Source: Salinicola corii (lineage in GTDB: Bacteria; Pseudomonadota; Gammaproteobacteria; Pseudomonadales; Halomonadaceae). Taken from it: a stretch of DNA of 64,000 bases. Both the position numbers and the translations under genes were made by a program. Below the pieces are notes generated by a model that worked only from the letters and a program-made list of their open reading frames with translations, was not told the origin of the DNA and made no database searches. The stretch spans positions 1 to 64,000 of the forward strand of contig NZ_VTPX01000008.1 of the NCBI RefSeq assembly GCF_008298015.1, written 5' to 3'. This document shows positions 12,220-43,446 of the stretch, piece after piece. The stretch's first letter is position 1. The number at the start of each line of letters is the position of its first letter.

Positions 12220-12635
12220 CGCGTTAGCACCTTGTCGATGGCCTCGTTGCACTTCATGAACACAGCTTGCGCGGCTTCTTCCTGCTTGGCCTCGAACGCG
12301 GGCCGAATGAACGGCGCCGCGGGAATCGTCGACGTGCCATATTCGATGAATTTCCAGTAGAAGGCGTTGCGCGGGTTGCTCGCTTTGCCTTCCTCCCGAA
12401 CCTTGACCCCTGCGGTGGCCTTGGTGCTGCTGGTGACCTTCGCGGTATCGCTGACGATGTTCTTCGCCAGCTTGCCGGTGCGCTTCTTCACACGCCGACG
12501 CGCCTCATCTCGAAACACACCGGCACCGGCCCGGGCGCCCTGTCGTAGCACGCGCTCGCTTTCCGCCTTTTCGAGCAGGCGCAATTCGGCCTCGAGGTCG
12601 GGCAGGGTTGACCAGTCCAAATGGGTCGTGTTCAT
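12216..12635 (-). CDS. HK97 gp10-family head-tail protein
   Basis: 139 residues starting at the ATG at 12635, which overlaps the preceding stop (ATGA). A longer open frame to 13139 is only read-through of other genes. The Arg/Lys-rich stretch RRRVKKRTGKLAKNI and the motif YWKFIEYGTSTIPAAPFIRPAF are typical of the HK97 gp10 family, which contributes to the neck and tail-completion complex. Both ends have 4-bp overlaps with neighbours, consistent with coupled translation in the connector module. Confidence 0.87.
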   Translation of the reverse strand: MNTTHLDWSTLPDLEAELRLLEKAESERVLRQGARAGAGVFRDEARRRVKKRTGKLAKNIVSDTAKVTSSTKATAGVKVREEGKASNPRNAFYWKFIEYGTSTIPAAPFIRPAFEAKQEEAAQAVFMKCNEAIDKVLTR

Positions 12636-13494: not shown

Positions 13495-14003
13495 TCGATC
13501 ACCTGCTCGGATTCTCGTGCGCCGCCTTGTGCGCTTCTGAATGCGCGAATCGCCGCAGGGTGGGAGTCCGCGACCCGCCGTTCGAGCAGTCGCTCAGCGA
13601 TGCGTGCCGGCAGCGTGGGAGTCGCACCCGGTCGGTAATCGATGCCGTCTACCGTCTCATCTCGCAGAATTAGCACCTCGATGGGACGCTCGGGATCCAA
13701 ATCACTAGGATCCTTGAACCCTTCATCGTCTCCCTGCTCATCGCCGCCCTGGTCGCCGCCTTGTTCGATATTCGTCGGTGGCGTCTCCGGCGGAACATCG
13801 GACATCCCCGTCAGTTGCGACTGCTCCCCATCGGCAGATGCCGAGATCGAGGGTTGCGCATCGGCGGCGACACCATCGGTGGCTGAGGGTTGCTCCGATT
13901 GGTCGGATTGCCCGGCGGTCGCTTCCTGGTCACGGGCGTCTTGTTCGGCTGCGGGATCATCGGCTTTCGTCTCCTGCGCCTGCTGTGACTTGCTTCGAGC
14001 CAT
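13491..14003 (-). CDS. Acidic hypothetical protein between capsid and connector
   Basis: 170 residues. The first 100 are low-complexity and rich in Gln, Asp, Glu, Ser and Ala, probably disordered. The last 65 form a compact-looking domain (PIEVLILRDETVDGIDYRPG, then LPARIAERLLERRVADSHP) of a kind seen in small phage proteins next to the capsid gene. I do not recognise a named function. A decoration, scaffold-like or connector-accessory role would fit the position but is not shown by the sequence. Confidence 0.7.
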   Translation of the reverse strand: MARSKSQQAQETKADDPAAEQDARDQEATAGQSDQSEQPSATDGVAADAQPSISASADGEQSQLTGMSDVPPETPPTNIEQGGDQGGDEQGDDEGFKDPSDLDPERPIEVLILRDETVDGIDYRPGATPTLPARIAERLLERRVADSHPAAIRAFRSAQGGARESEQVIE

Positions 14004-31407: not shown

Positions 31408-31698
31408 ATGCTCGCGCTTGATCATCTCACCGTCGAGAAGTTCGCTGAACACAGCGGCTACTCTCCCGGCGCGATTCGCTCGAAGATCAAAACCGGCGTA
31501 TGGCGCGAAGGGCACGAGTATAAGAAGGCGCCAGACGGGCGCATCCTCGTTTCAATTCAGGGATACGAACAGTGGGTAAACCGACCGACTTCGACGGCGT
31601 CCGGGCCGCTTCGGCCAGCACAATCGAGATCGACTTCTACTACCAGGGAGCGCGCTGCCGCGAACGAATCAAGCTGCAGCCCACCCCCGCTAATCTGA
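31408..31698 (+). CDS. Excisionase-like DNA-binding protein
   Basis: 96 residues, with GGAGG six bases before the ATG. Residues 3-57 (LTVEKFAEHSGYSPGAIRSK, then GREGHEYKKAPDG-like spacing and SIQGYEQWV) match the winged-helix fold of phage excisionases. The remaining 39 residues are Ser/Thr/Arg-rich and encoded inside the integrase gene in another frame; they do not look like a folded domain. Family role: directs the integrase towards excision. The 127-bp overlap suggests coupled expression of excisionase and integrase. Confidence 0.8.
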   Translation: MLALDHLTVEKFAEHSGYSPGAIRSKIKTGVWREGHEYKKAPDGRILVSIQGYEQWVNRPTSTASGPLRPAQSRSTSTTRERAAANESSCSPPPLI

Positions 31699-32735
31699 AG
31701 AAAGCGGCGCGCCACCGCGCCGCGATCCTGGACAGCATCGACAACGGCACCTTCGACTACGCCGTCACCTTTCCCCGCAGCAAGAACGCCCGCAAGTTCA
31801 TCCGCGGCGATCGCCTGGACCACTACCTGACCGGCTGGCTCGAGAAGAAACGCCCAACGCTGAAAACCAGCACCTTTCAGGGTTACCGCAAGATCATCGA
31901 CGGGCAGTTGATACCGGAGTTCGGCCACCTGCTTCTCGGCGAGCTGAAGCGTGGCCATGTGCGTGACTGGGCGGCCACGCTTACTTGCACCAATAAGCGG
32001 ATCGCCAACATGGTCAGCCCGCTACGCGCAGCGCTGGATGACGCCATGCACGACGAGCTGATCCCAGCCAACCCACTCGCCGGCTGGCACTACCGTAAGC
32101 AAGAGGCCCCGCGGGAAGTCGACGATATCGATCCGTTCACCGCCGAAGAGCAGCGCGCGATCGTTGCGGCAGCCCCAGCGGCGGCACGGCCGCTACTCGA
32201 GTTCGCATTCTGGAGTGGACTGCGCACGTCCGAACTGGTCGCGCTACGCTGGGAGGACATCGACTGGCAGCACAAACGACTGCGCGTGACCCGTGCGATG
32301 ACGCAAGCGGCCCGCGGTACCGCCGAGGCAACGAAGACCGCCGCCGGCACCCGCACGATCGACCTACTGCCTATCGCCCACGACGCTCTCACAAAGCAGA
32401 AGCCGCTGAGTGCGTTGCACCCCAGCGGCCACGTCTTCCTCAACCCGCGAACCGGCGAACCCTGGACCGGCGACCAGGCGATCCGAAAAACGATGTGGAC
32501 CCACGCACTCAAGCGCGCTGGCGTCCGGTACCGCCGGCCCTACCAGACACGCCACACCTTCGGATCGATGATGGTCTCCGCCGGGGAGCCCCTCGCCTGG
32601 GTATCGCGGCAGATGGGCCACACCAGCGTCATCACCACCACGAGGATCTACGCCAGGTGGATACCGGTTACGAATAGCCAGGCGGGAGCCTTGGCGACAC
32701 GCGCATATGCTGATTCACGCGGAAGCATTGCTTGA
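31572..32735 (+). CDS. int: Prophage tyrosine integrase
   Basis: 387 residues from a GTG at 31572. The N-terminus (STIEIDFYYQGARCRERIKL) is an arm-binding domain of the DUF3596 type. A SAM-like core-binding domain follows. The catalytic part shows the first Arg in FWSGLRTSELVALRWEDID, the RHTFGSMM box, the LGH-like MGHTSVITT and the nucleophile Tyr in RIYARW. It lies at the right end of the prophage, 1.2 kb from the attachment core. The Abi_2 gene between them is probably cargo. Confidence 0.93.
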   Translation: MGKPTDFDGVRAASASTIEIDFYYQGARCRERIKLQPTPANLKKAARHRAAILDSIDNGTFDYAVTFPRSKNARKFIRGDRLDHYLTGWLEKKRPTLKTSTFQGYRKIIDGQLIPEFGHLLLGELKRGHVRDWAATLTCTNKRIANMVSPLRAALDDAMHDELIPANPLAGWHYRKQEAPREVDDIDPFTAEEQRAIVAAAPAAARPLLEFAFWSGLRTSELVALRWEDIDWQHKRLRVTRAMTQAARGTAEATKTAAGTRTIDLLPIAHDALTKQKPLSALHPSGHVFLNPRTGEPWTGDQAIRKTMWTHALKRAGVRYRRPYQTRHTFGSMMVSAGEPLAWVSRQMGHTSVITTTRIYARWIPVTNSQAGALATRAYADSRGSIA

Positions 32736-32767
32736 AAGCATTTCGCGAAAAAATTTGACGGAAAAGT

Positions 32768-32789
32768 AGTGTTAAGGTACCTTAACACT
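32768..32789. promoter_or_regulatory. Perfect 22-bp palindrome in the integrase-abi gap
   Basis: Eleven-base arms (AGTGTTAAGGT and its exact complement) meet with no spacer. The palindrome covers the -10 region of a possible promoter (TTGACG at 32755-32760, 17-bp spacer, TACCTT at 32778-32783) reading towards the abi gene. It looks like an operator for a dimeric regulator that is not encoded nearby. Confidence 0.7.
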
Positions 32790-32866
32790 CAATCGCGCCC
32801 GCTCCTCTGGCCTGCCTATATGGCTTGCTACGTGCGGGCCTTCTCGTTTCTGGTCCAAAAATAAAT

Positions 32867-33856
32867 ATGTCTCAGCCGAATCCCATTGCGCCGAAACCCT
32901 GGAAAGACTACACCGATCTCGTCAGTAGGCTTGAGAACAACGGCATGATTGTTCCTGATCGGGCGCGAGCAGAGCGCAAGATTTCGCAGATCGGCTACTA
33001 CCGGCTGAGTGGTTACTGGTATCCGTGTCGCCAGATAGAATTGGATGATACCGGCAGGCAGGTTAAGAGATATGGACTACCAATGAGATCTAGCGCCTTT
33101 CAAGAAGGCACTAACTTCGATGATATTGTTCGTCTCTATATTTTTGATAAACGCTTAAGGCAACTAATTCTCGACGCAGTTGAACGAATAGAAGTCAATA
33201 TTCGGACCATTATTGCCCATGTTGTCGGACAGCAAGACGCCCTAGCGTACGAGAACCCCTCATTTATAAACCCTAAAAAGCTAGCCACCTATTTTCAGAA
33301 TGGCAATGTGAGGAATCAATGGCACGACTGGCTCGGCAACCATAAAGCTAAAATCAACAGGAGCCGAGAAGACCATATTGAATGGCATAAGCGGAGCCAA
33401 AAAGCCATTCCCTTTTGGGTGGCTGTCGAAGCTTGGGACTTCGGAACAATGTCAAAATATTTCGAACTTCTCAAAATGTCTCATCAAACAAGAGTCGCAG
33501 AAAAAGTAGGTGTCTCGACAGTCAAAAATTTAGTTAATTGGCTGCGTGAGATAAATACGTTACGTAATAGATGCGCCCATCATGCAAGAATCTGGAATCA
33601 GTCTAGCTCTAATCCACTCAATTATGAGAACGACCCTTTTTTTCATGGTCTGCCATCTAATGGAGAAAGCAAGAAGCGCATGTTGGGCTTGATCGCTGTG
33701 ATTGGGTATCTCACGAAACAGATCGGTCCGGGATCACGCTGGATCGAGGATGTAGCGGCATTGATAGATGATAAGCCCAACCCACCATCTTGCTCTTTGA
33801 GCGCAATGGGGATACCTGAAGACGGCTTTCCTAGAGCAGCTTTTGGGATTGGCTGA
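32867..33856 (+). CDS. Abi_2-family abortive infection protein (AbiD/AbiF-like)
   Basis: 329 residues from the ATG at 32867. The start KPWKDYTDLVSRLENNGMIV, then SQIGYYRLSGYWYP, and the middle FDKRLRQLILDAVERIEVNI are hallmarks of Abi_2. LREINTLRNRCAHHARIWN contains the R-x4-H HEPN ribonuclease motif. Family role: abortive infection after phage attack, by RNA cleavage. The gene is clearly more AT-rich than its surroundings and lies outside the core prophage modules next to the att site, as expected for acquired anti-phage cargo. A repressible promoter lies upstream. Confidence 0.9.
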   Translation: MSQPNPIAPKPWKDYTDLVSRLENNGMIVPDRARAERKISQIGYYRLSGYWYPCRQIELDDTGRQVKRYGLPMRSSAFQEGTNFDDIVRLYIFDKRLRQLILDAVERIEVNIRTIIAHVVGQQDALAYENPSFINPKKLATYFQNGNVRNQWHDWLGNHKAKINRSREDHIEWHKRSQKAIPFWVAVEAWDFGTMSKYFELLKMSHQTRVAEKVGVSTVKNLVNWLREINTLRNRCAHHARIWNQSSSNPLNYENDPFFHGLPSNGESKKRMLGLIAVIGYLTKQIGPGSRWIEDVAALIDDKPNPPSCSLSAMGIPEDGFPRAAFGIG

Positions 33857-33910: not shown

Positions 33911-33938
33911 GGGGGTTCAATTCCCCCCGCCTCCACCA
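33911..33938 (+). other. Attachment site: 3' end of a tmRNA (ssrA) or tRNA, left boundary of element 2
   Basis: GGGGG, TTCAATT, CCCCC forms a T-arm, followed by CGCCTCC and ACCA, the 3' acceptor strand of tmRNA or tRNA. The 5' part of such a gene is not present upstream, because the abi gene ends only 55 bp away. The last 14 bp (33925-33938) recur exactly at 43433-43446. I interpret this as an att junction shared by the prophage and the second element. ssrA is favoured because related P4-type integrases (E. coli CP4-57) use it. Confidence 0.72.
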
Positions 33939-33985
33939 AATAAGGGTTTCAGGGCATATCAGAAAGTGTCATGAGACCAGCAAAC

Positions 33986-34008
33986 AAGGGCCTTCGGGCC
34001 CTTTTTTG
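33986..34008 (+). terminator. Intrinsic terminator just inside element 2
   Basis: AAGGGCC (33986-33992), loop TTCG, GGCCCTT (33997-34003) and a T-run. It may terminate transcription coming through the reconstituted RNA gene end. Confidence 0.8.
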
Positions 34009-34051
34009 TTGTCATAACGTCCCACAAGATTCCTAGACATCCGCCGTTCTA

Positions 34052-34222
34052 TGGGGGCATATTTGGGGGCACATCGCCATAGCGCCCGATCTTATGCCCC
34101 CAAATCGGCAGGAAATCCCCGCCCCATGGGCTCAGGCAGAGAACGAGAGATGCCCCCAGCGTGGGGGCATAAGCTCCAAGATTGGGGGCACATGGCGACC
34201 ATAACGCCACGAGGTGCCCCCA
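34052..34222. repeat. Integrase arm-type boxes TGGGGGCA, left end of element 2
   Basis: Seven copies of TGGGGGCA or its complement lie in 171 bp: 34052, 34064, 34162 and 34183 on the plus strand; 34095, 34151 and 34215 on the minus strand. The last overlaps the integrase ribosome site and start. The first pair, 12 bp apart, sits in a 21-bp segment repeated exactly at 43351-43371 near the other end. Such boxes at both ends are expected arm-binding sites for the integrase. The copy at the start codon could also autoregulate it. Confidence 0.8.
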
Positions 34223-35455
34223 ATGTCCCGCCCTACCAATAAGCTCAGCGCGACCGCCGTTCGCACCGCCAAGCCTGGAGAGAAGATCCAACGGCTGGCG
34301 GATGGTGGAGGGCTATATCTGGAGATAACTCCAGCAGGTGGTCGCTACTGGCGGATGAAATACCGGATCCACGGCAAGGAGAAGCGCCTGGCCATCGGCG
34401 TCTATCCCGATGTGAGCCTATCCGATGCCCGGGAAGCGAGAGACGAGGCCCGCCGGCTACTGACTCAAGATATCGACCCCAGCACGGCCAAGCGCCTGAC
34501 ACGCCAGCATGGCGTGGAGAATGCCGCCAGCACCTTTCAGACCGTGGGCGTGGAGTGGCTGGAGCAGGTACACCAGCATGAAGTGGTGCCAGAGCACTAC
34601 CAGCGCAACAAGCGCCGGCTGGAGCGTGACGCGTTCCCCATACTTGGCCGCCGGCCGATCGCCGATATCACCGCCCCGGAGCTGCTGGATTGCCTCAAGC
34701 GGATACAGGACCGCGGGCATCTGGAGACCGCCCACCGCGTCAAGACGCTATGTGGCCAGGTATTCCGTTACGCCATCTCCAAGGACCGTGCCGAGCGAGA
34801 CCCAACACCAGACCTCAAGGGCGCCCTGCGCAGCGCCAGAGGCAGCCACCACGCCGCGCTGACGGATCCCGAGCAGATAGGCCCGCTGTTACGAGCGATC
34901 GACGGCTACGGCGGCACGCCGACCGTTATCGCCGCGCTCAAGGTATCGCCCCTGGTCTTCGTCCGGCCGGGAGAGCTTCGCCAGGCGCTGTGGGAGGATA
35001 TCGACCTCAAGGCTGGCGAGTGGTCATTCCAGCCCAGCAAGAACGCCGCGCCGCTGATTGTGCCTCTACCCACCCAGGCCGTGGCGATCATATCCGACCT
35101 CCAAGGGCTGACCGGGCGCAGTCGATACGTATTCCCCGGCGCCCGTAGCCATACTCGCCCGATGAGCAATGCCGCCATCAAGGCCGCGCTGGACACGATG
35201 GGATTCAAGGGGCAGATGACCGCCCACGGCTTCCGAGCCATGGCCCGCACGGTGCTGGCGGAACGTCTCAACTTCCCCAGCGAATACATCGAGCAGCAAC
35301 TGGCCCACTCAGTACGCGATGCCAATGGCCGGGCATACAACCGCACCCAGCACCTCGAGCAGCGCCGGGAAATGCTACAAGCATGGGCGGACTACCTCGA
35401 CGCTCTCAAGGCAGGCACCACCAACGTGGTGCCATTGCGGAAAGCTGGCGCATGA
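34223..35455 (+). CDS. P4-type tyrosine integrase of element 2
   Basis: 410 residues from the ATG at 34223 (GAGG eight bases upstream); a GTG at 34214 is a weaker alternative. The N-terminal 90 residues (LSATAVRTAKPGEKIQRLAD, then RLAIGVYPDVSLSDARE) are the DUF4102 arm-binding domain of P4-like integrases. The catalytic domain has Arg in VFVRPGELRQALWEDID, AHGFRAMARTVL, the LAHSVRD box and the Tyr in GRAYNRTQHL. It lies directly beside the att core. Its sequence is unrelated in the N-terminus to the prophage integrase, so the two elements integrate independently. Confidence 0.95.
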   Translation: MSRPTNKLSATAVRTAKPGEKIQRLADGGGLYLEITPAGGRYWRMKYRIHGKEKRLAIGVYPDVSLSDAREARDEARRLLTQDIDPSTAKRLTRQHGVENAASTFQTVGVEWLEQVHQHEVVPEHYQRNKRRLERDAFPILGRRPIADITAPELLDCLKRIQDRGHLETAHRVKTLCGQVFRYAISKDRAERDPTPDLKGALRSARGSHHAALTDPEQIGPLLRAIDGYGGTPTVIAALKVSPLVFVRPGELRQALWEDIDLKAGEWSFQPSKNAAPLIVPLPTQAVAIISDLQGLTGRSRYVFPGARSHTRPMSNAAIKAALDTMGFKGQMTAHGFRAMARTVLAERLNFPSEYIEQQLAHSVRDANGRAYNRTQHLEQRREMLQAWADYLDALKAGTTNVVPLRKAGA

Positions 35456-35619
35456 ACCTTGCGGATGCTGCGGATCTGCGGAAAGCCCCGCCATTCCGGG
35501 TATTTGCCGTTGCGGATAAGTTGCGGACGGCTGCGGATAGCTCCAATTCATCCCCCCGTTTCAGGGCAGTGGCCAGCAGTCGCGGACGGGGCCTGCGGAT
35601 TCTGCGGATTTGCGGATAG
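35452..35619 (+). CDS. Doubtful 55-residue frame made largely of repeat module 1
   Basis: An ATG overlaps the integrase stop (ATGA) and opens a frame of 55 codons (MNLADAADLRKAPPF onward). Most of it is TGCGGAT-repeat DNA. Similar residues (ADSS, ILRICG) arise simply from translating the repeats. It may be translated because of the overlap, but a functional protein is doubtful. Confidence 0.25.
   Translation: MNLADAADLRKAPPFRVFAVADKLRTAADSSNSSPRFRAVASSRGRGLRILRICG
35460..35538 (+). repeat. Composite six-box repeat module M1
   Basis: TGCGGA(T/A/C) boxes start at 35460, 35469, 35477, 35511, 35522 and 35532, so the spacings are 9, 8, 34, 11 and 10 bp. The same spacing recurs in M2, and in reverse order in M3 and M4 (33 bp in the middle). 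Box 5 is TGCGGAC in M1, M2 and M4. Confidence 0.9.
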
Positions 35620-35672
35620 CCCCGCCACGGCGGGCGATACCGTTTGCGGATGAATTGCGGACGGCTGCGGAT
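35594..35672 (+). repeat. Composite six-box repeat module M2
   Basis: Boxes start at 35594, 35603, 35611, 35645, 35656 and 35666, giving 9, 8, 34, 11 and 10 bp, identical to M1. Only 55 bp separate M1 from M2. The spacer sequences differ between modules while the boxes are kept, which points to selection on protein binding rather than simple duplication. Confidence 0.9.
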
Positions 35673-35695
35673 AACATCGAGAACGCGGAGGCGAC

Positions 35696-35857
35696 ATGGA
35701 AAACGACAACCTTTCAATCAAAGGCTACCGCAAAGGAGGCCGGCCGATGAGGTGCCATGCCTGTGGCAAGAAAACCGAGCGAGCAACCTCCGAAGTCATC
35801 GACAAGCGGCGCTACTGCGTTGATTGCCTTCGCTATACCATGGCACGCCGACGCTAA
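35696..35857 (+). CDS. Small zinc-ribbon protein
   Basis: 53 residues from an ATG with GGAGG four bases upstream. It contains CHACGKK, a 13-residue insert and YCVDCLRY, so two CxxC pairs about 20 residues apart could bind zinc. The tail is basic (MARRR). Function unknown; a DNA-binding or regulatory role is plausible. It follows the M2 repeat and precedes the structured leader of alpA. Confidence 0.72.
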   Translation: MENDNLSIKGYRKGGRPMRCHACGKKTERATSEVIDKRRYCVDCLRYTMARRR

Positions 35858-35956
35858 CTAGAGTCCACCAAATAGCCATAGCGTGCCAAGCGATTCCAAG
35901 AAGTTGTTCAAAAAGGTGACCTTTTGGGGTATTCTTTCTCCCATGCTGGTATTTCA

Positions 35957-36075
35957 GATGCCGAACGGTAGTGACAGTTACCGATTGGCATCCGCGATAA
36001 CTAGATAAACCGCCCACGAGAGGCGGTTTTTTTGTGCCCAAAGGAAACCCGAACCCGCCTCGAGCGGGTTTTTTT
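35957..36075 (+). promoter_or_regulatory. Structured leader with stem-loop and two intrinsic terminators upstream of alpA
   Basis: A stem-loop (35957-35992) has a 6-bp and a 5-bp helix around a 3x3 internal loop and an 8-nt apical loop (GATGCC/GGCATC, CGGTA/TACCG). Terminator 1 is AAACCGCC/GGCGGTTT with seven T (36007-36033). Terminator 2 is AACCCGC/GCGGGTT with seven T (36052-36075), 18 bp before alpA. AAAAGG-TGA-CCTTTT near 35914 may be an operator. The layout recalls P4, whose immunity works through a small RNA and premature termination in front of its replication operon. Confidence 0.7.
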
Positions 36076-36093
36076 ATGCCTGGAGAAAGTGCA

Positions 36094-36291
36094 ATGGCCA
36101 TGATTCGGCTTCCCCAAGTAATGAAGGAAACAGGCCTGAGCCGCAGCAGCGTTTACCGGCTCATCAAGTCCGGCGAATTCCCGCAGCCGGTCAACCTAGG
36201 CCCGAGAGCGGTCGCGTGGGTCGATAACGAAGTGCGCGAGTGGATCGACAGCCGCATCCAAGGGGCGCGCAACAACGGGGAGACTGCCTAA
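36094..36291 (+). CDS. alpA: AlpA-family transcription regulator
   Basis: 65 residues from the ATG at 36094, preceded by GGAG eight bases upstream; an ATG at 36076 lies in the terminator and lacks a site. RLPQVMKETGLSRSSVYRLI, then GEFPQPVNLGPRAVAWVDNE and VREWIDSR are the MerR-like winged helix of AlpA. Family role: in CP4-57 AlpA activates excision, and in P4 the homologous Vis controls excision and transcription. It is the first gene after the double terminator. Confidence 0.93.
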   Translation: MAMIRLPQVMKETGLSRSSVYRLIKSGEFPQPVNLGPRAVAWVDNEVREWIDSRIQGARNNGETA

Positions 36292-36329
36292 TGCTTGCCC
36301 CAGCCACTCCCCGCCGATATGCTGCAGGC

Positions 36330-36414
36330 GTTACGGCAAAATCCGTAACCGATCTTGGCGGATCGAATCCCAAAAGGCGCATCAGCGCCCCTACATCATG
36401 TCGGCGCTTTTTTT
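36330..36414 (+). promoter_or_regulatory. Hairpin and terminator after alpA, with mutually exclusive pairings
   Basis: A perfect 7-bp stem GTTACGG/CCGTAAC (36330-36349) is followed by a terminator AGCGCC (36384-36389) / GGCGCT (36403-36408) with seven T. The same GCGCC can instead pair with GGCGC at 36376-36380, which would break the terminator. This looks like an attenuator between alpA and the small-gene operon. The rest of the 36292-36568 gap shows no gene. Confidence 0.6.
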
Positions 36415-36568
36415 GTGCCCGACTGATGCGTTATGGCGGCTGTGCGCGAGATGCCTACGGGCATGCCGGTGTTTCCTTTTGGGCCGGTCCGCCAACTTGC
36501 GTACAGTCGCCCCCATCCGTTGCTTGGCGGCAACCGGGGACGACTCCAATACCAAAAGGAGTCACCCT

Positions 36569-36754
36569 ATGGCCTTCCCGCGCCTATTCCCTATCCGCAA
36601 TCCGTCTGCACGCGCCGCAGCCCATCGCGCTATGGCAAGAGCAGCCCTGTTCAGCAACTCAAGCGCCGCCGTCCGGCTCAAGCGCTACAACCACCACATC
36701 AGCAAAGCCCACCACCTGGAAACCTTCAACGCCGGCCAGGAGGTGCAGGCATGA
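36569..36754 (+). CDS. Small basic protein, unknown
   Basis: 61 residues, ATG with AGGAG seven bases upstream. It is rich in Ala, Arg, His and Ser (ARAAAHRAMARAALFSNSS, then RLKRYNHHISKAHHLE) and strongly basic, likely helical. It overlaps the next gene by 4 bp and begins the main operon of element 2. No family recognised. Confidence 0.65.
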   Translation: MAFPRLFPIRNPSARAAAHRAMARAALFSNSSAAVRLKRYNHHISKAHHLETFNAGQEVQA

Positions 36755-37008
36755 AAATGGTCTCGATCACTCCAACCGCCATCAAGCACCGCGCCGATAC
36801 GGCCGCCCGCATCGGGTCCGCGCTGGCGGGCATTACCACCGTGCTGCACAACGACGAGATGGAGCGCGACGAGGGCCGCCCAGCGCTGGTGGACAACTTC
36901 ACCCGAGGGAATCTGTTCGAGGCACTGCTGGCGCTCAGCGATCAGGCCACCGACCTGGCGGATTCCATCGCTTACCTGAGCCAGAACGAGCAGGAGGGCC
37001 AGTCATGA
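36751..37008 (+). CDS. Small helical protein, unknown
   Basis: 85 residues (MKMVSITPTAIKHRADTAAR onward). Predicted mostly helical with an acidic C-terminus (FEALLALSDQATDLADSIAY). Start and stop both form ATGA overlaps with neighbours. Unknown function. Confidence 0.65.
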   Translation: MKMVSITPTAIKHRADTAARIGSALAGITTVLHNDEMERDEGRPALVDNFTRGNLFEALLALSDQATDLADSIAYLSQNEQEGQS

Positions 37009-37325
37009 GCGATGACCTTCAAGTCGCCCGGCTGATGGTGGAGCGCGTCACCCTCGAATCCAGCCGCCTACAAGTCGCCCTCAACGCGATCAGCGATGCC
37101 GCCTCCGAGGATGACGGCACGCTCTCCGACAGCACCTTGCGCGGCCTGATGGAAGCCGCCGGCATGTTGGGCGACTACATGGACCTGTTCGCCAACGAGC
37201 AGGCCGCCAGCCTGCGCAGCCTGGAAGAATCACGGAATCGCGAGGAGTCCCGCCGCGCCTTGGCCGAGTGTGCCGATAGTGTGCAAGACACCCCCGTCTC
37301 CAAGGCAAGGGGGGCGAAACGATGA
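37005..37325 (+). CDS. Small helical protein, unknown
   Basis: 106 residues. Acidic helices (RLMVERVTLESSRLQVALNA, then GLMEAAGMLGDYMDLFANEQ) end in a charged tail. No motif recognised. It is coupled by overlaps to both sides. Confidence 0.65.
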   Translation: MSDDLQVARLMVERVTLESSRLQVALNAISDAASEDDGTLSDSTLRGLMEAAGMLGDYMDLFANEQAASLRSLEESRNREESRRALAECADSVQDTPVSKARGAKR

Positions 37326-37798
37326 AGACTATTATCACCTTCGACACCGCCCGCCTGACCGACGACGAGCAACGTCGACGCCTCGAGGAATCACCGGGGT
37401 TCGAGCTGGCGGCGATCCTGCGTCAGTTGGCCGTGGAGTGTGAGCAAGGCGGCAAGCTGCCCACCTCCCGCATGGTGGCGTTGGACGAGTCCGCCAGCGG
37501 CACACGTTTCCCGACTCACATCGGCACCGTTGAGACCCCGCCTCAGGCTGAGGCAGATGGACAGCCCCGCATGACGATCGGCCAAGCCATCGAGCTGGTG
37601 CAGACCACAAGCGATCTGCTGACGCTGGGCAACCGGATCGAGCGAATCGAGAAGGAGATGGGGCATGCCAAGGTGCCGGCCCGCGAGCGTCTACCACTGG
37701 CCAAGGCCAGCGGGCATATCGGCGCCACGTTGCATGCGGTATTCCGTGCGCTGGAGAACGCCCACGAGGGCATGGGAGGGCCGTTCCGTGAAGTCTGA
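37322..37798 (+). CDS. Hypothetical protein of element 2
   Basis: 158 residues. The N-terminal half (IITFDTARLTDDEQRRRLEE, then LAAILRQLAVECEQGGKLPT) and the C-terminal helix (ASGHIGATLHAVFRALENAH) show no known domain. Position directly before the primase suggests a replication accessory role, without sequence support. It overlaps the primase start by 11 bp. Confidence 0.62.
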   Translation: MKTIITFDTARLTDDEQRRRLEESPGFELAAILRQLAVECEQGGKLPTSRMVALDESASGTRFPTHIGTVETPPQAEADGQPRMTIGQAIELVQTTSDLLTLGNRIERIEKEMGHAKVPARERLPLAKASGHIGATLHAVFRALENAHEGMGGPFREV

Positions 37799-38738
37799 AA
37801 CGAGAACGCCCGACCACAAGGGCCGGGCGCCAGAGCCGCGTTGTGTGCTCCCCACACATCACCATCATAGCATCGAATCGGCGTTGATCGACGCCCTGCT
37901 AGGCCAAGGCGTGGCCGGCCTCTCCATCATCGCCGATGGTAGCGTCCATCGCTTCGATGCCCCGGACAAGCGTCGCGGCAATCTCTCCGGCTGGTACGTG
38001 TGCCCCACTCACGAGATCGCCGTCTATGGCTTCTGGCATACAGGCGAACAGCACACGGTGACGCTGGCGGGAGAGCATGACCCCATCGCCGCCGAGCAAG
38101 CACGACAGGTTGCGCAGAGAGCCCGGCAGGCAAGGGAAAGCCAGCGGCAGCGAGAGCAGGCGCACGCGGCCAAACGCGTCCGCCGGCTGTGGGCAAGCGC
38201 CAGCGCTGCCGATCGACGCCATGCCTACCTGGTCGCCAAGCAGGTAGCACCCTACGGCATCCGCCAGCATGGCGACCGGCTGCTGGTCCCACTGTTCGCC
38301 GAGGGCCAACTGGTGAACCTGCAACGCATCGGACCAGATGGCACCAAGCGCTTCATGCCCCGCGCTCGCCTCAAAGGCTGCGCGACGATCATCGGTCGGC
38401 TGGCGGATGCACCGCGCCTGTACCTCTGCGAAGGCTGGGCAACGGCCGCGACGTTGCATGAGTCCACCGGCTGCCCCGTGGTCGCCGCCATGACCGCCAA
38501 CAACCTGGCACCGGTCGGGCAAGCCCTTCGTCAGCGTCTGCCGGCGAGCGTTGCCATCACCGTCGCCGCCGACAACGACCAGCACACCGAAGGCAATCCC
38601 GGCATCACCGCCGCCAGAGAGATCGCGGCCGCCGTCCGCGCCGATCTGACCTGGCCACGCTTCCCCTGTCCGGATTGCACCTGTACCGACTTCAACGATC
38701 TGGCTCGCTGCCAGTCTCCCCAGGAGGGCGCCGCATGA
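37788..38738 (+). CDS. Toprim-domain primase of element 2
   Basis: 316 residues from a GTG at 37788 (GGAGGG seven bases upstream). Residues 60-180 include GWYVCPTHEIAVYGFWHTGE and a basic helical linker. The C-terminal half has LYLCEGWATAATLHESTGCP and ITVAADNDQHTEGNPG, the Glu and DxD elements of a Toprim catalytic site. CPDCTCTDFNDLARCQ at the end adds a Cys cluster. It probably makes primers for replication of the element. It overlaps the DUF3987 gene by 4 bp. Confidence 0.87.
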   Translation: MKSETRTPDHKGRAPEPRCVLPTHHHHSIESALIDALLGQGVAGLSIIADGSVHRFDAPDKRRGNLSGWYVCPTHEIAVYGFWHTGEQHTVTLAGEHDPIAAEQARQVAQRARQARESQRQREQAHAAKRVRRLWASASAADRRHAYLVAKQVAPYGIRQHGDRLLVPLFAEGQLVNLQRIGPDGTKRFMPRARLKGCATIIGRLADAPRLYLCEGWATAATLHESTGCPVVAAMTANNLAPVGQALRQRLPASVAITVAADNDQHTEGNPGITAAREIAAAVRADLTWPRFPCPDCTCTDFNDLARCQSPQEGAA

Positions 38739-40261
38739 GTAACGCCGCCGTTAAACAGCAACTGGGGCAGCCCATAGAGCGCGGGAGCGTGCTCGAGCTG
38801 AACCCTATTCCTCTCGCTGAACGAGAGCAGCCGCCCGCCTTTCCTCTTGAGGCACTGGGTCCGATCTTGGGAGAGGCTGCCGAGCGCCTGGCCTTCCACG
38901 TTCAGACACCGCCGGGCATGGCTGGCCAGTCCGTGCTGGCGGCCGCCGCGCTGGCGGTGCAAGGCCAAATCGATATTGCACGAGGACCGATCGGCCGCGG
39001 TCCGGTCTCGCTGTTCTGCATGACCGTGGCCGGTAGCGGAGAGCGCAAGTCAAGCCTGGACGGTCTGGCGTTGGCGCCGATCCGCGACCTGGAAGCCGAG
39101 AAGCGTCAGGGGCACCCCGAGGCCATGGCGAGCTTCAAGGCTGCCCGTGAAGCGTGGGAGATGCGCCGAGAGTCTGTTATCAGCGCCAGCAAGCCTAAGG
39201 GCCGCCAGCCCATGAAGGAGGCGGAGCAAACCTTTCTCCAAGAGCAACTGGCGGAGATCGACGGACAAGAGCCCCAGCCGCCAGCCACGCCAAGCATGAC
39301 CTTTGCCGAGCCCACCGCCGAGGGCATCTACCGACATCTCCAGCACAGCTACCCAAGCGCGGGGCTGTTCAGCGACGAAGGCGTGGGATTCTTCGGTGGG
39401 CATGGAATGAGTGAGGAGAGCCGGGGCCGCACGGTAGCGATGGTTTCCAAGCTGTGGGATGGCTCACCGATCACCCGGACTCGAGGCACCGCTGGGGAGT
39501 CTGGCTTTCTGTCTGGCCGGCGCCTGTCGGCCCACCTGATGGTGCAACCCGTAGTAGCTGCCAAGGTGCTGGGCGACCCGCTATTGCAAGGCCAAGGCTT
39601 CCTGGCCCGCTTCCTGATTGTGCAGGAGACGAGCCTGGTAGGTAGCCGACTGCTGAAAGGACGAGATCCCAAGCGTGGCGCCCATCATGATCCGGCGATC
39701 GGCCGCTATTGGGAGACGCTGGCCAGCCTCATCCGTGAACCACTTCACACCGACGAGAACGGCGCCCTGTCGCCCAGGCTTGCCAGCATCGACGGCGCAG
39801 CCTTCGATACGTGGGCCCGCCTTCACGACAGTATCGAGTGGCAGCTCAGCCCCGATGGTCGCTTTCGCGACGTGCAGGCGTTCGCCAGCAAGGCAGCCGA
39901 CAACGCCGCGCGCATCGCCACCGTGCTGGCAATCGTCGAGGGAGAACACAGCCCTACACCCCAGCATATCGAGAGAGCCGGACGCCTGATGGCGTACTAC
40001 CTCGAGTCGATGGCGATCCGCACAGCCGAAGCACGTCAGGACGTGCAGGAGCTACAGGCTCGCGACCTGATGGAATGGATCAAGGCGCACGGCGGAGAGC
40101 TACACGCCCGCGACTTCAAGCGACTGGGCAGCGAGTACCGCAGCGCCACGAAGGCCCGCGCCCTGCTGACCTTCCTGGTCGACACGGGGCACATGCAGAT
40201 TGCCAGCAGCAACCAGAGCGGAAAGCCGACAGGCTGGCGGATTCGGGAGGTGCAATCATGA
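38735..40261 (+). CDS. DUF3987 family protein, putative replication helicase/ATPase
   Basis: 508 residues from the ATG at 38735. FHVQTPPGMAGQSVLAAAAL, then CMTVAGSGERKSSLDGLAL, SAGLFSDEGVGFFGG and AGRLMAYYLESM are DUF3987 features. The SGERKS sequence stands where a P-loop would be, with Arg in place of the usual Gly, so ATP binding is uncertain. The family commonly follows a Toprim primase in mobile elements. The middle contains a charged coiled-coil insert (about residues 110-170). Confidence 0.86.
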   Translation: MSNAAVKQQLGQPIERGSVLELNPIPLAEREQPPAFPLEALGPILGEAAERLAFHVQTPPGMAGQSVLAAAALAVQGQIDIARGPIGRGPVSLFCMTVAGSGERKSSLDGLALAPIRDLEAEKRQGHPEAMASFKAAREAWEMRRESVISASKPKGRQPMKEAEQTFLQEQLAEIDGQEPQPPATPSMTFAEPTAEGIYRHLQHSYPSAGLFSDEGVGFFGGHGMSEESRGRTVAMVSKLWDGSPITRTRGTAGESGFLSGRRLSAHLMVQPVVAAKVLGDPLLQGQGFLARFLIVQETSLVGSRLLKGRDPKRGAHHDPAIGRYWETLASLIREPLHTDENGALSPRLASIDGAAFDTWARLHDSIEWQLSPDGRFRDVQAFASKAADNAARIATVLAIVEGEHSPTPQHIERAGRLMAYYLESMAIRTAEARQDVQELQARDLMEWIKAHGGELHARDFKRLGSEYRSATKARALLTFLVDTGHMQIASSNQSGKPTGWRIREVQS

Positions 40262-40962
40262 TCGACCTGATGGAAGTCGGACGCCGACTATGGGAGAGCG
40301 GAGATACCCAAGCCAGTACGTCCTTCACCCAAGCGCGGCCAGCCTTGGACCTGATGGAGCTGGGCCGCCAGCTATGGGATGACGAGACGGCAGAGAGCTC
40401 ATCCGCAACCATCCGCAACTCATCCGCAAACGCCGAGCCTAATGATACCGGCTTATCCGCAGATCCGCAGAATCCGCAGCACCCCGCGCCAATGCGGGAG
40501 ATCGAGGCGATCATCTCCAGCCTGGTAGCCGCTGGCCATGACGTGGATGCGAGATTGGCTCATCGGCTGCGGGAAACGATGGCGCCACTGTCCCGGCGTG
40601 ACCGCGCCGATCTGGCCATAGCCGTGGAAGACGCCATGACGGCGACCAGCGACCCGGACGAGACAAGCCGGCGAGCGCTGGCCCTGCTGGGCGAAGCGTC
40701 CCCCAAGGCACCACACCGGGAGACGATCGGCAATCGAGAGCCTTGGATCGATTGGATCGCCGGCCGTTGCCCGCTACTGGCGGAGGATAGGACGTTCATC
40801 TGTCGACGTATGCGGACCCTGCCACCCAGGGCCGCAGAGCGCACCGCCCGGCGATACGTGGCGATCTGGCACTCAGCCGTCGAAGTTGAGCCCAGCCCAG
40901 TGAAGCAAGAGAACGCCGGCAGAGCCGCGGCCAATCGCTCACTACTGGCGTTGGTGCGCTAA
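40258..40962 (+). CDS. Hypothetical protein containing repeat module M3 in frame
   Basis: 234 residues. It opens with two copies of a short motif (IDLMEVGRRLWESGDTQAST and LDLMELGRQLWDDETAESSS). Then comes a Ser/Asn/Pro-rich linker (residues 48-80) that is encoded by repeat module M3. The C-terminal 140 residues are helical (APLSRRDRADLAIAVEDAM, then WIDWIAGRCPLLAEDRTFIC). No family recognised. The linker suggests that the DNA repeat, not the peptide, is under selection there. Confidence 0.7.
   Translation: MIDLMEVGRRLWESGDTQASTSFTQARPALDLMELGRQLWDDETAESSSATIRNSSANAEPNDTGLSADPQNPQHPAPMREIEAIISSLVAAGHDVDARLAHRLRETMAPLSRRDRADLAIAVEDAMTATSDPDETSRRALALLGEASPKAPHRETIGNREPWIDWIAGRCPLLAEDRTFICRRMRTLPPRAAERTARRYVAIWHSAVEVEPSPVKQENAGRAAANRSLLALVR
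40401..40478 (-). repeat. Composite six-box repeat module M3 (reverse), inside a gene
   Basis: ATCCGCA boxes start at 40401, 40411, 40422, 40455, 40463 and 40472 (spacing 10, 11, 33, 8, 9), the mirror image of M1 and M2. It lies within the coding sequence of the 40258 gene and keeps its reading frame open. Confidence 0.9.
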
Positions 40963-41271
40963 CAGCTAGCCGAAAGGATGGGGCGTTTCGCCCCGTCCTC
41001 CAACAAAACCCTGATATCGCTCAGTCGCCGCAGCCTGCCGAAAATGGCGGGTCCTTCCCCACCCAGATTCCCCAGGCCACGGGGGACGAGCATCGCGGAA
41101 TTCGGCATTTTTTCGGCGATCTATGATGCTCCACCACAGGTGGCAATGAGGCCCGCTGTTGAGCGTCTAGAGACCTGTACCACCTGTACATGGATGCAGT
41201 GAATTTGCCGCCTTTCATGCTCAGGTCAAACCCGCCCACGACGGGCACTTAACTCACCGCAGGAGAATCAA
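40963..41271 (+). other. Intergenic region before the coiled-coil gene
   Basis: 309 bp without a convincing gene. It begins with a GC hairpin (GATGGGGCG/CGCCCCGTC, 40976-40999) that lacks a T-run. ACCTGTAC-CACCTGTAC is a short direct repeat near 41170. AGGAG precedes the next ATG. Confidence 0.5.
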
Positions 41272-42285
41272 ATGTTCAAATCTAAAAAAGCCACCGATGA
41301 ATGGGCCGCCTGGTATCAGACGGTCAAGGCAAAGCGCGATGAGCTTTCAGAGGCAGACAGCAGTCTGTCGGAAGCCAAGAAAGAACGGGAGGCATCGCAG
41401 CACGCATTGACGTTCCATGTCCGCAACGCCCGTCACATGACATCCAGGGAAATCGGAGAGGAACCCAGCGCACAGGATATCCAAGCCCTGATGACTCGGC
41501 TCGAGCAACTGGCAAGCTCAGGGCCTAAGACACAGAAAGGAGAAGAGGCCCAAGCGTATCTGCATAACGTCCAGCAGGCCTATCAGAACTTACAGCAGGC
41601 CGGAGAAGCGCAGCAGGCCGCGGGCGAGCTGAAAGATGAGCGGGCTGAATCTCTCGCCAAGGTCGAGGGAAGAATCCCGAAAGCCACCGCGACCACGCTG
41701 GAAATCATCCAGAAGGATATGGACGAGGCCCAAGCCTACCGAGATGGCATTGCCGAGAAGCTGGCCAGTCTCGAGGGCGAAAGCGGCTCGCTGACAACTG
41801 CAGCACAGGAAGCCGTGGCAGCCCAGGAAAAGCTCGAGGAACTAGAGGCCCTGGCGGCAATCGGCTACGGCGACGAGACCGAAACCAAGGCCGCGAACAC
41901 ACAGCACGCCAAGGCACGTACACAGGTCGAGAAGGCACAAGCCGATGTGAGCCGGCATCAAGCGCTCCAGCGCGGTCTACGTCGAAAGCTGTCGGAAGCA
42001 AACGTCAGCCTAGCCCACCTGGAGCTAGCCTATAGCGCCGCAGCGACGCACGTTCACGGTGAGAAGCTGGCGCAGCTGGAAACCCATCTGGTCGAATATC
42101 TGACGGGTAGCGATCTGACGTGCCTGCTGGAAGAAATCGGCCGCCATCGGCGGGCGCTCGAGGAAGCCCAGCCAGGGGCAAGTTATGGCTTGCCGCCCGA
42201 AGTCACGGTTGAGCTCCCAGTCCTGTACTTCCACCCCGATCGCGCCGAGCTGTCCGGCGAGCGTCGCACCGTCCAGCCGATCTGA
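41272..42285 (+). CDS. Long coiled-coil protein of element 2, unknown
   Basis: 337 residues, almost entirely charged heptad-like helix (DELSEADSSLSEAKKEREAS, then AEKLASLEGESGSLTTAAQE) up to residue 290. A short C-terminal end is rich in Pro and Arg (LPVLYFHPDRAELSGERRTV). There is no signal peptide or membrane span. In satellites such a protein could be a scaffold or capsid-size factor, or a structural or defence component. The sequence alone does not decide. It has its own ribosome site and is followed by repeat module M4. Confidence 0.72.
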   Translation: MFKSKKATDEWAAWYQTVKAKRDELSEADSSLSEAKKEREASQHALTFHVRNARHMTSREIGEEPSAQDIQALMTRLEQLASSGPKTQKGEEAQAYLHNVQQAYQNLQQAGEAQQAAGELKDERAESLAKVEGRIPKATATTLEIIQKDMDEAQAYRDGIAEKLASLEGESGSLTTAAQEAVAAQEKLEELEALAAIGYGDETETKAANTQHAKARTQVEKAQADVSRHQALQRGLRRKLSEANVSLAHLELAYSAAATHVHGEKLAQLETHLVEYLTGSDLTCLLEEIGRHRRALEEAQPGASYGLPPEVTVELPVLYFHPDRAELSGERRTVQPI

Positions 42286-42326
42286 GTCAGGGAAGGGTAC
42301 GCGCATCTGTGTACCCTTTTCGCCAT

Positions 42327-42404
42327 ATCCGCAGCCGTCCGCAACTCATCCGCAACCGCCGAGCTCCGTGATAACGGCTTATCCGCAAATCCGCAGAATC
42401 CGCA
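42327..42404 (-). repeat. Composite six-box repeat module M4 (reverse)
   Basis: ATCCGCA-type boxes start at 42327, 42337, 42348, 42381, 42389 and 42398 (spacing 10, 11, 33, 8, 9), the same as M3. It lies 42 bp after the coiled-coil gene and 28 bp before a strong promoter. Confidence 0.9.
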
Positions 42405-42431
42405 CGACCAATTCCAAAGAGAGGAGCGGTG

Positions 42432-42460
42432 TTGACACTGTGTCACGCTGCGCCAATAAT
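42432..42460 (+). promoter_or_regulatory. Near-consensus sigma-70 promoter with overlapping palindrome
   Basis: TTGACA (42432-42437), 17 bp, AATAAT (42455-42460). A perfect inverted repeat TGACAC-T-GTGTCA (42433-42445) overlaps the -35 box and could be an operator. Confidence 0.82.
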
Positions 42461-42466
42461 GAGGTC

Positions 42467-42585
42467 GTGTGAGTAAGGCCTAGGTAGCCGCGACAGCGTA
42501 TAGCATCGTAAGCGTACTGTTTGGTGCGCCGGCCCTAGGGGTCACACACAGCTTCCAAGGCCAATGCCCGTCATTGGCCTTTTTT
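42467..42585 (+). ncRNA. Candidate small RNA of element 2
   Basis: The promoter at 42432-42460 would start a transcript near 42467. A strong intrinsic terminator (AAGGCCAATG/CATTGGCCTT with a 5-nt loop, 42557-42581, then T-run) ends it about 118 nt later. No open frame with a ribosome site lies between. The terminator also separates it from the DUF3800 gene downstream. A regulatory RNA is therefore more likely than an mRNA leader. P4-like elements use a small RNA for immunity, but similarity of function here is only a hypothesis. Confidence 0.6.
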
Positions 42586-42608
42586 CTTGCCTGAACAAAA
42601 AGTTATAT

Positions 42609-43334
42609 ATGCAGCGCTTAATATTTCTCGATGAAAGCGGCGATTTAGGTTGGAAATTCGATGCGCCTTTTGGCAAAGGCGGATCTTCTCGGCATTTGAC
42701 CATCGCCAGCGCATTCACCTGCATTGAGGCAAAAAAGCATTTAGCGAGAACAATTATAAACCTGAAGAAGAAGGCTGGCTGGGCAAAAAAAGATGAGATG
42801 AAGTGGGTACATACTCCCCACGAGTTGAGATTAGAGTTTTGCGAGAAGGCTGCCCAGCTTTGTGAAAAGCATCAAACGATTGAATATAGAGCCTTAGTTA
42901 TCGCGAAACAGGGAGTACTGGAGCGCCTTAGACACGATGACGCCATGCTCTACAACTATCTAATTAAGTGTTCTCTTCTCGAGCCGATTTCAAGATATCA
43001 ACGCGTAACGCTTTTTCCTGATCCGCGTGGGATCGCTCCTAACGCCGGACATCCATTGAGCACCTACCTACAAGGCAGGCTCTACGAGAAGTTTGTGGAT
43101 GGTCATCACCTCACGGAACTTGGGGTAAAGCAGATAGACAGCGCAGCAGAATACGGCATCCAATTCGCCGACATGTTGGCTGGTGCTATCCAGCTTCACT
43201 ATGAAGGCAAGACCTCCGAGTATTTCGATCTTCTCAGGCCCTGCCTCCGGGACTGCAAAGAGCTTTATTTCCCGCGGCCAAATGTGCAGCAGGTCTGGCA
43301 AGAATACGCAGCGAACGAGATATTTGGGCCCTAG
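42609..43334 (+). CDS. DUF3800 family protein, cargo gene
   Basis: 241 residues from the ATG at 42609; a Met at 42564 lies in the terminator and is not credible. The N-terminus LIFLDESGDLGWKF with the DESG motif and the late acidic EYGIQFADMLAGAIQ are diagnostic of DUF3800, which has an RNase H-like nuclease fold. The gene is AT-rich against the rest of the element and has a poor ribosome site. It sits at the far end next to the att core, a common place for cargo. DUF3800 proteins often occur in islands and near defence genes; its role here is unknown. Confidence 0.88.
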   Translation: MQRLIFLDESGDLGWKFDAPFGKGGSSRHLTIASAFTCIEAKKHLARTIINLKKKAGWAKKDEMKWVHTPHELRLEFCEKAAQLCEKHQTIEYRALVIAKQGVLERLRHDDAMLYNYLIKCSLLEPISRYQRVTLFPDPRGIAPNAGHPLSTYLQGRLYEKFVDGHHLTELGVKQIDSAAEYGIQFADMLAGAIQLHYEGKTSEYFDLLRPCLRDCKELYFPRPNVQQVWQEYAANEIFGP

Positions 43335-43350
43335 CCATCCAATCATGCTT

Positions 43351-43371
43351 GGGGGCATATTTGGGGGCACG
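43351..43371. repeat. Right-end arm-type boxes of element 2
   Basis: A 21-bp segment identical to 34052-34072. It holds two TGGGGGCA boxes 12 bp apart (43351 and 43363), about 60 bp before the att core. Confidence 0.85.
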
Positions 43372-43432
43372 TCTGACTATGGATTACAAAAAATGCTTAC
43401 TTTACTGATGTATATGCGATCTTTTAAGTGGA

Positions 43433-43446
43433 CCCCGCCTCCACCA
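43433..43446 (+). other. Right attachment core of element 2
   Basis: CCCCGCCTCCACCA, exactly the last 14 bp of the RNA-gene end at 33925-33938. The flanks differ on both sides, as expected for attL/attR of a 9.5-kb insertion. Confidence 0.8.

Follow-up and report, generated by a model that had tools for sequence, protein, structure and literature searches.

What is the function of a six-box repeat module that occurs four times within a single satellite-like element of about 9.5 kb in Salinicola corii? The element lies in a 64,000-nucleotide stretch of this genome (contig NZ_VTPX01000008.1, positions 1 to 64,000; hereafter the window), and a reading made from the sequence only had proposed that the modules are replication-initiator sites comparable to the iteron sets of phage P4 ori and crr. 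That proposal gained support from the linkage of modules to DUF3987 genes, from box switching between related elements and from a predicted MCM-like fold of the DUF3987 protein. The four modules are best read as iteron-type binding sites for the element's DUF3987 protein (encoded at 38735-40261, plus strand). This protein would be a replicative helicase of the MCM-like AAA+ type whose C-terminal domain is a winged helix, and one or more of the modules would serve as a replication origin. The probability of this reading is put at about 0.78.

Modules 1 (35460-35538) and 2 (35594-35672) are on the plus strand and are oriented toward modules 3 (40401-40478) and 4 (42327-42404), which are on the minus strand. 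Each contains six TGCGGA boxes, with start-to-start spacings of 9, 8, 34, 11 and 10 bp in modules 1 and 2 and, read on the minus strand, of 9, 8, 33, 11 and 10 bp in modules 3 and 4. All 24 boxes (TGCGGAH) were found where the sequence-only reading had placed them, and both of its spacing series, one the mirror image of the other with 33 in place of 34, were reproduced by a pattern search, which located the full six-box pattern in the window solely at 35460 (+), 35594 (+), 40478 (-) and 42404 (-). Its placement of two modules right after the integrase gene was also correct: module 1 starts 5 bp beyond it and module 2 comes next. Modules 3 and 4 had been described as bracketing the right part of the element; this is only partly apt, module 4 being at the right end and module 3 sitting in the variable linker of the open reading frame (ORF; 40258-40962) that starts at the end of the DUF3987 gene. 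The integrase gene has one additional TGCGGAA box at its 3' end (35436).

In the complete S. corii assembly (4.66 Mb, 30 contigs), the matches to a five-box pattern were these same four modules, all inside the element, and a backwards control pattern gave 0 matches. Scatter of the module through the host genome, as in a repetitive extragenic palindromic (REP)-like or other general repeat family, had been named as the observation that would speak against a link to the element; it was looked for and was absent. The earlier impression that boxes are kept while spacers differ was borne out by pairwise comparison of 13 modules, of which four belong to the window and nine come from related records (the DUF3987 genes of two sources, L033 and L017, are almost the same). 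Identity was 75% in the two short left spacers, 43% in a 20-bp stretch of the central spacer and 99.1% in the boxes, the last figure being partly due to construction because the modules were selected via their TGCGGA boxes.

The proposed search of family genomes for the spacing pattern, carried out independently of genes, identified the TGCGGA pattern in four of 275 genomes, always in at least two copies and invariably within an element that encodes DUF3987. In the order sample, the only positive genome out of 391 was the window's own. Two viral contigs also contained the pattern. One (L015) duplicates the window's element almost exactly and was left out of consideration, and the other (L016, the same as L033) is a relative. 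With the window's DUF3987 protein alone as query, a homologue was found beside the modules in the three other pattern genomes and in the viral relative (L016, L017, L018 and L020). A further contig of the L018 genome, L019, holds an integrase with its module and is probably the other part of a split element. The linkage figure of 2e-5 is only indicative and partly circular, because the DUF3987 profile was built from these four elements. A profile search at 1e-40 matched DUF3987 in 20 of the 275 family genomes; 11 of the loci had a downstream array, six had no array at all and the remaining three (L135, L140 and L141) correspond to the elements seen in L021, L024 and L025, whose modules are located elsewhere.

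The places occupied by modules recur among these elements. A module follows the integrase in the window, L016/L033, L019, L021, L024 and L027; one is found in or just after the ORF following DUF3987 in the window, L017, L018/L023, L027 and L033, and in decayed form in L021; and one is found further right in the window, L021 and L024. L022 and L027 have three modules each, and some elements lack one or more of the three kinds of place. In L021, positions 13627-13784 hold a module with a distance of about 114 bp between its triplets in place of 33/34, and a further lone triplet occurs at 14076.

The box sequence can change across a whole element. In Salinicola salarius (L022), three modules at homologous places have all 18 boxes altered to TGCTGA, with spacings of 9, 8, 33/34, 11/12 and 11/12 bp, and the DUF3987 protein is 89% identical to that of the window. 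In L152, from the same family, with DUF3987 62% identical, the modules after the integrase and after DUF3987 both use TGGCGG. A 19-kb circular record from P. putida (L034) has TGGCGAC boxes at 9, 9, 34, 11 and 12 bp directly after its DUF3987 gene. Because all sites in one element share the same altered box, a single trans-acting, element-specific binder is indicated.

To identify candidates for this binder, 12 window proteins were compared with 17 stretches of related elements, a set that includes double fetches of one element and in which short proteins or a distant AlpA could be missed. DUF3987 was matched in 16 of the 17, the one miss being the split contig L019. Toprim was matched in 11, the integrase and the ORF after DUF3987 in eight each, a short ORF (36569) in six, AlpA in five, another ORF in three and two short ORFs in one each; the zinc-ribbon-like ORF, orf37322 and DUF3800 were matched in none. 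This comparison excludes other proteins more than it proves DUF3987, because most of the stretches were found through DUF3987. Two exchanges concern the integrase: L021 has kept TGCGGA boxes with an integrase of another lineage, and L022 has changed boxes with an integrase 94% identical. In L024, Toprim was not matched and DUF3987 is fused to a RepB_primase domain. Neither AlpA nor Toprim appears in the gene table of L034, which may be incomplete (seven of the 15 proteins in that table were scanned with Pfam). Of the primase, DUF3987, zinc ribbon and AlpA listed earlier as possible binders, DUF3987 was retained, and the zinc ribbon, AlpA and Toprim were rejected on the above counts and, for Toprim, on L024.

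These counts also bear on the possibility that the modules are operators, through which AlpA or another small regulator of the element would control the integrase, AlpA or replication genes. Modules 1 and 2 do lie between integrase and AlpA, module 4 is near the right-end genes, and AlpA belongs to a DNA-binding family that is needed for excision of phage-inducible chromosomal minimalist islands (PICMI), according to an excerpt of PMC10803314. However, AlpA, of which distant forms could be missed, is matched in only five and the zinc-ribbon-like ORF in none of the 17 stretches; module 3 is within coding sequence, as is the array of L034, in a small ORF after DUF3987; and arrays follow DUF3987 in very different loci. 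Regulation through operators is therefore an unlikely explanation.

The last point comes from a wider survey, in which an array was defined as two triplets of 7-bp boxes with a pitch of 8-12 bp, the triplets being 8-60 bp apart and direct or inverted, and was sought in the 700 bp after each DUF3987 gene with a cut-off of 37 of 42. Loci came from DUF3987 searches or were chosen by record type (L034, L035 and L037) and not for arrays, the exceptions being the window and elements also found through the TGCGGA pattern. Among 105 loci, 102 had a DUF3987 match, and 65 non-redundant loci were left when proteins under 330 aa were dropped and the set was thinned at 88% identity. Such a 3+3 array was present downstream in 43 of the 65, window included (41 if the doubtful L041 and L091 are left out). 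Upstream control regions had none (0/61), nor had dinucleotide-shuffled sequences (0/390). The definition was widened after the data had been seen, because inverted triplets were admitted later; both controls used the widened form. The initial search, confined to same-strand triplets, had returned from L078-L107 only the window's copy (L096) and an A/T-rich call in L101; L099, L100 and L107 in this set gave no DUF3987 match. Of the 43 arrays, 23 are direct and 20 inverted, and a triplet at exactly 9, 9 bp occurs in 29. Box words vary across loci, from TGTCGCA and TGCTACA to GCTATTC and TGCTTAA. An alphaproteobacterial locus, Paracoccus L160, has an inverted array scoring 41 of 42, and similar arrays are found after the DUF3987 genes of circular plasmid records and of viral contigs 35-45 kb long.

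Iterons also serve in plasmid control, and the modules could accordingly act in partition, incompatibility or copy-number control and not in initiation, with DUF3987 perhaps still the binder. Several copies per element, some away from the helicase gene, would fit such a role. The array is nevertheless close to the helicase gene in 43/65 loci, as are the origins of Staphylococcus aureus pathogenicity islands (SaPI), and no partition family was matched by Pfam among the ten element proteins scanned. A control function of this kind is considered quite improbable.

Several individual records deserve mention. Several of the viral contigs L060-L075 have TGTCGCA arrays (TGTAGCA in L060) at a distance of about 410-560 bp downstream of DUF3987; many of these consist of a 9, 9 triplet and, after it, a cluster of mixed orientation. 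None was seen in L063 or L068-L071. A different array form occurs in L154 (10971-11032), where eight GGCGGA boxes with a strict 8-bp pitch follow DUF3987. In the circular record L034 (NZ_CP043577.1), no replication-type gene was recognised other than DUF3987, which has its array, and the record may be an excised self-replicating element. Two Psychrobacter plasmids, pA37P2 and pA52P5 (L035 and L036), carry RepM with 22-bp repeats upstream, plus an integrase and DUF3987 with its own array, and look like plasmid-satellite cointegrates. In E. coli K-12 CP4-57 (L037), six tandem copies of the 8-bp unit GCACTATG are present at 12413-12460, between abpA and yfjM.

Structure prediction suggests that DUF3987 is an AAA+ helicase resembling MCM and that it ends in a winged helix. 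An AlphaFold2 model built with 25 sequences (predicted local distance difference test score, pLDDT, 86.7) shows an AAA+-like core and a C-terminal helix-helix-helix-strand-strand domain. The predicted winged helix (residues 437-508; 40043-40258, plus strand) is the proposed box-binding domain. Foldseek gave 219 matches to this model at E <= 10, three of them at E <= 0.001, and 43 of the 50 matches listed were MCM, CMG or replisome chains. VIA-align, used to re-align Foldseek's list, superposed DUF3987 and MCM over 275 residues with Z 18.8 and a root-mean-square deviation of 3.7 A. When the last 83 residues were used alone, Foldseek returned weak winged-helix matches (best E 0.013) and VIA-align returned winged helices at modest values of Z <=9.1, including 9gjw chain 4 (Mcm4 by its label) at Z 8.4.

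Covariation between DUF3987 residues and box sequence is suggestive only. It was calculated for 39 of 45 boxed loci, L041 and L091 having been dropped for doubtful boxes, L042, L043 and L053 for C-terminal disruption and L075 by a 400-aa limit. In a sliding window, the peak fell in the winged helix, with a partial r of 0.34 against a median of 0.14. In L022, where the boxes have switched, the winged helix showed an excess divergence ratio of 3.1-3.6, compared with 1.0-2.3 in four other pairs, these being small numbers.

A number of observations weigh against DUF3987 as the initiator that reads the boxes. Query-normalised TM-scores to MCM are low (<=0.40 among the matches listed), and Pfam MCM models gave no match at E <= 0.001, the DUF3987 family alone being matched. 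In the covariation analysis, a value of 0.33 is also attained by a window in the core (285-300), relatedness is not taken into account in the permutation p of 0.0005, and in close pairs the recognition helix was no more alike when boxes agree. A YRSAxK motif was tried as a marker of TGCGGA boxes and rejected, since L138 has RSAxK with TGGCGGA and L039 has RKAKK with TGCGGAA. At the cut-off, 22 of the 65 DUF3987 loci had no array, including yfjI of E. coli CP4-57, and three further enterobacterial loci (L157, L158 and L159) had none. Among the close relatives, the modules of L024 and L025 are elsewhere than downstream of DUF3987, those of L025 being decayed, as is the copy after DUF3987 in L021. 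The modules themselves are not AT-rich (AT fraction 0.37-0.44), and one exact DnaA-box pattern had no match within the element.

On balance, initiation by DUF3987 remains the preferred reading, and we infer binding, ring loading, melting, origin activity and a role for the extra copies in the following form. Winged helices of DUF3987 subunits would read the three boxes on each side of the spacer of about 26 bp, and a helicase ring, perhaps one per triplet, would be loaded at the module. The DNA would melt there after ring loading, and the linked primase would then prime synthesis. Modules at the three different places (behind the integrase, behind DUF3987 and at the right end) may cooperate in cis, like P4 ori and crr. 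A bolder version is offered tentatively and is considered possible, with the odds against it. DUF3987 might be a bacterial counterpart of MCM that needs no separate loader, each triplet seating one ring through winged-helix reading, so that 3+3 boxes would form a two-ring loading site. Inverted triplets would then place opposed rings, and direct triplets would act jointly with modules of opposite orientation at other places in the circle. As a switchable, element-specific password, the box might prevent satellites and prophages that share a host from activating one another's origins.

The iteron origin of a self-loading mobile-element helicase is already known as a kind. Rep helicases of SaPI bind iterons just downstream of their own gene via a C-terminal domain (excerpt of PMC7581432, citing Ubeda et al. 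2007), and apparently two hexamers are bound (same excerpt). As with SaPI Rep/ori and Cch2 of the staphylococcal cassette chromosome mec (SCCmec), a mobile-island helicase here has short repeats directly downstream of its gene (in the 43 of 65 loci, window included). The SaPI layout also includes a variable primase partner and a helicase with its own DNA-reading domain, for which the predicted winged helix of DUF3987 is a candidate counterpart. Unlike in SaPI, the helicase here is DUF3987, with DUF927 or D5/Primase_Cterm not matched by Pfam, and the repeats form two triplets with a recurrent 9-bp pitch and have extra copies elsewhere in the window's element and close relatives. Phage P4 is a satellite with iterons at separated cis sites, ori1 and crr, one of which is a tandem pair, and its alpha protein is a single primase-helicase with other iterons. 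The window's element resembles P4 in having iterons at two or more separated cis sites (four in the window) and differs in having a separate primase, Toprim_3 (or RepB-type), and DUF3987. Archaeal and eukaryotic MCM share with DUF3987 the predicted AAA+ core fold and C-terminal winged helix; the absence of a Pfam MCM match sets DUF3987 apart. To our knowledge, MCM winged helices do not read iterons.

Elements with a similar gene content have been described. E. coli CP4-57 (intA, alpA, yfjI and yfjJ) has integrase, AlpA and DUF3987 in the same order as the window's element and lies in the smpB-ssrA region, presumably inserted at the ssrA site itself; unlike the window, it lacks a 3+3 array in the 700 bp that follow yfjI. 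PICMI of Vibrionaceae, compared by description, likewise have an integrase, AlpA and a DUF3987 (or DUF5906) protein, and integrate next to fis (excerpt of PMC10803314), whereas the window's element is at the 3' end of ssrA. For a Vibrio satellite of this class, which is defined by DUF3987 or DUF5906, the same excerpt reports that deletion of the primase gene lowers circular copies; the term 'iteron' is absent from the main text of that paper. DUF3987 was earlier predicted to be a helicase family whose winged helix may recognise the origin (excerpt of PMC5862659). Among the literature matches listed, no description of an array at DUF3987 genes was found, nor of DUF3987 in this role, the 3+3 geometry, the multi-site layout or element-wide box switches.

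The element itself extends from about 33,925 to 43,446, is linked to ssrA and is flanked by a 14-bp direct repeat (33925-33938 and 43433-43446, both plus strand). The left repeat forms the last 14 bp of a 24-bp stretch (33915-33938) that duplicates the 3' terminus of ssrA, the same 24 bp being present where the intact transfer-messenger RNA (tmRNA) gene ends on contig C26 of this genome. The integrase, zinc-ribbon-like, AlpA, primase and DUF3987 genes and the ORF after DUF3987 are on the plus strand. A tyrosine integrase (34214-35455; Pfam Phage_integrase, Arm-DNA-bind_3 and Phage_int_M) is followed by a short zinc-ribbon-like ORF (35696-35857), recognised from a CxxC...CxxC pattern in its translation, and by an AlpA-type regulator (36094-36291; Phage_AlpA 1.2e-22, scanned from 36034). 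Three short ORFs without Pfam match separate AlpA from the Toprim primase (37788-38738; Toprim_3 2e-11), which precedes DUF3987, of the YfjI family (DUF3987 5e-79); both of the latter assignments agree with what had been read from the sequence. The ORF that contains module 3 begins with a MIDLMExGRRLWE motif, has no Pfam match and has homologues in L021, L022, L023 and L152; within its first 40 residues (40258-40380), DLMExGRxLW occurs twice. Another ORF without Pfam match precedes the DUF3800 gene at the right end (42564-43334), which is likely cargo (0/17 related stretches) and coincides with most of the element's AT-richest DNA.

Near both ends, TGGGGGCAY repeats look like integrase arm sites. 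On the left (34052-34222), they start at 34052, 34064, 34162 and 34183 on the plus strand and at 34094, 34150 and 34214 on the minus strand; on the right, a 21-bp copy, TGGGGGCATATTTGGGGGCAC, at 43350-43370 (+) is also present in the left repeat region. They are unrelated to the modules. Module 1 does begin 5 bp after the integrase gene, and several relatives likewise have modules behind their integrase, but it is highly improbable that the modules are integrase or excisionase arm sites, given this different repeat by both attachment sites and given that integrases were swapped with boxes kept in L021 and boxes switched beside a near-identical integrase in L022. Directly left of the element (31572-33856), a second integrase, of the Arm-DNA-bind_2 type, and the abortive-infection gene Abi_2 seem to mark where a neighbouring prophage ends. 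This neighbourhood, together with the element's likeness to a satellite, might suggest packaging signals for a helper phage terminase, but the modules can hardly be such signals, as the boxes are element-specific and the same kind of array follows DUF3987 in the 35-45 kb viral contigs and circular plasmid records.

With these modules, the uncharacterised helicase family DUF3987 gains a candidate DNA target and a testable origin, and a bacterial mobile-element initiator would be linked to the MCM fold, as predicted from models. The natural specificity switches between TGCGGA, TGCTGA and TGGCGG are usable for swaps. The array geometry is recognisable even when the box sequence changes, which offers a sequence-based route to the origins of satellites, prophages and plasmids that carry DUF3987.

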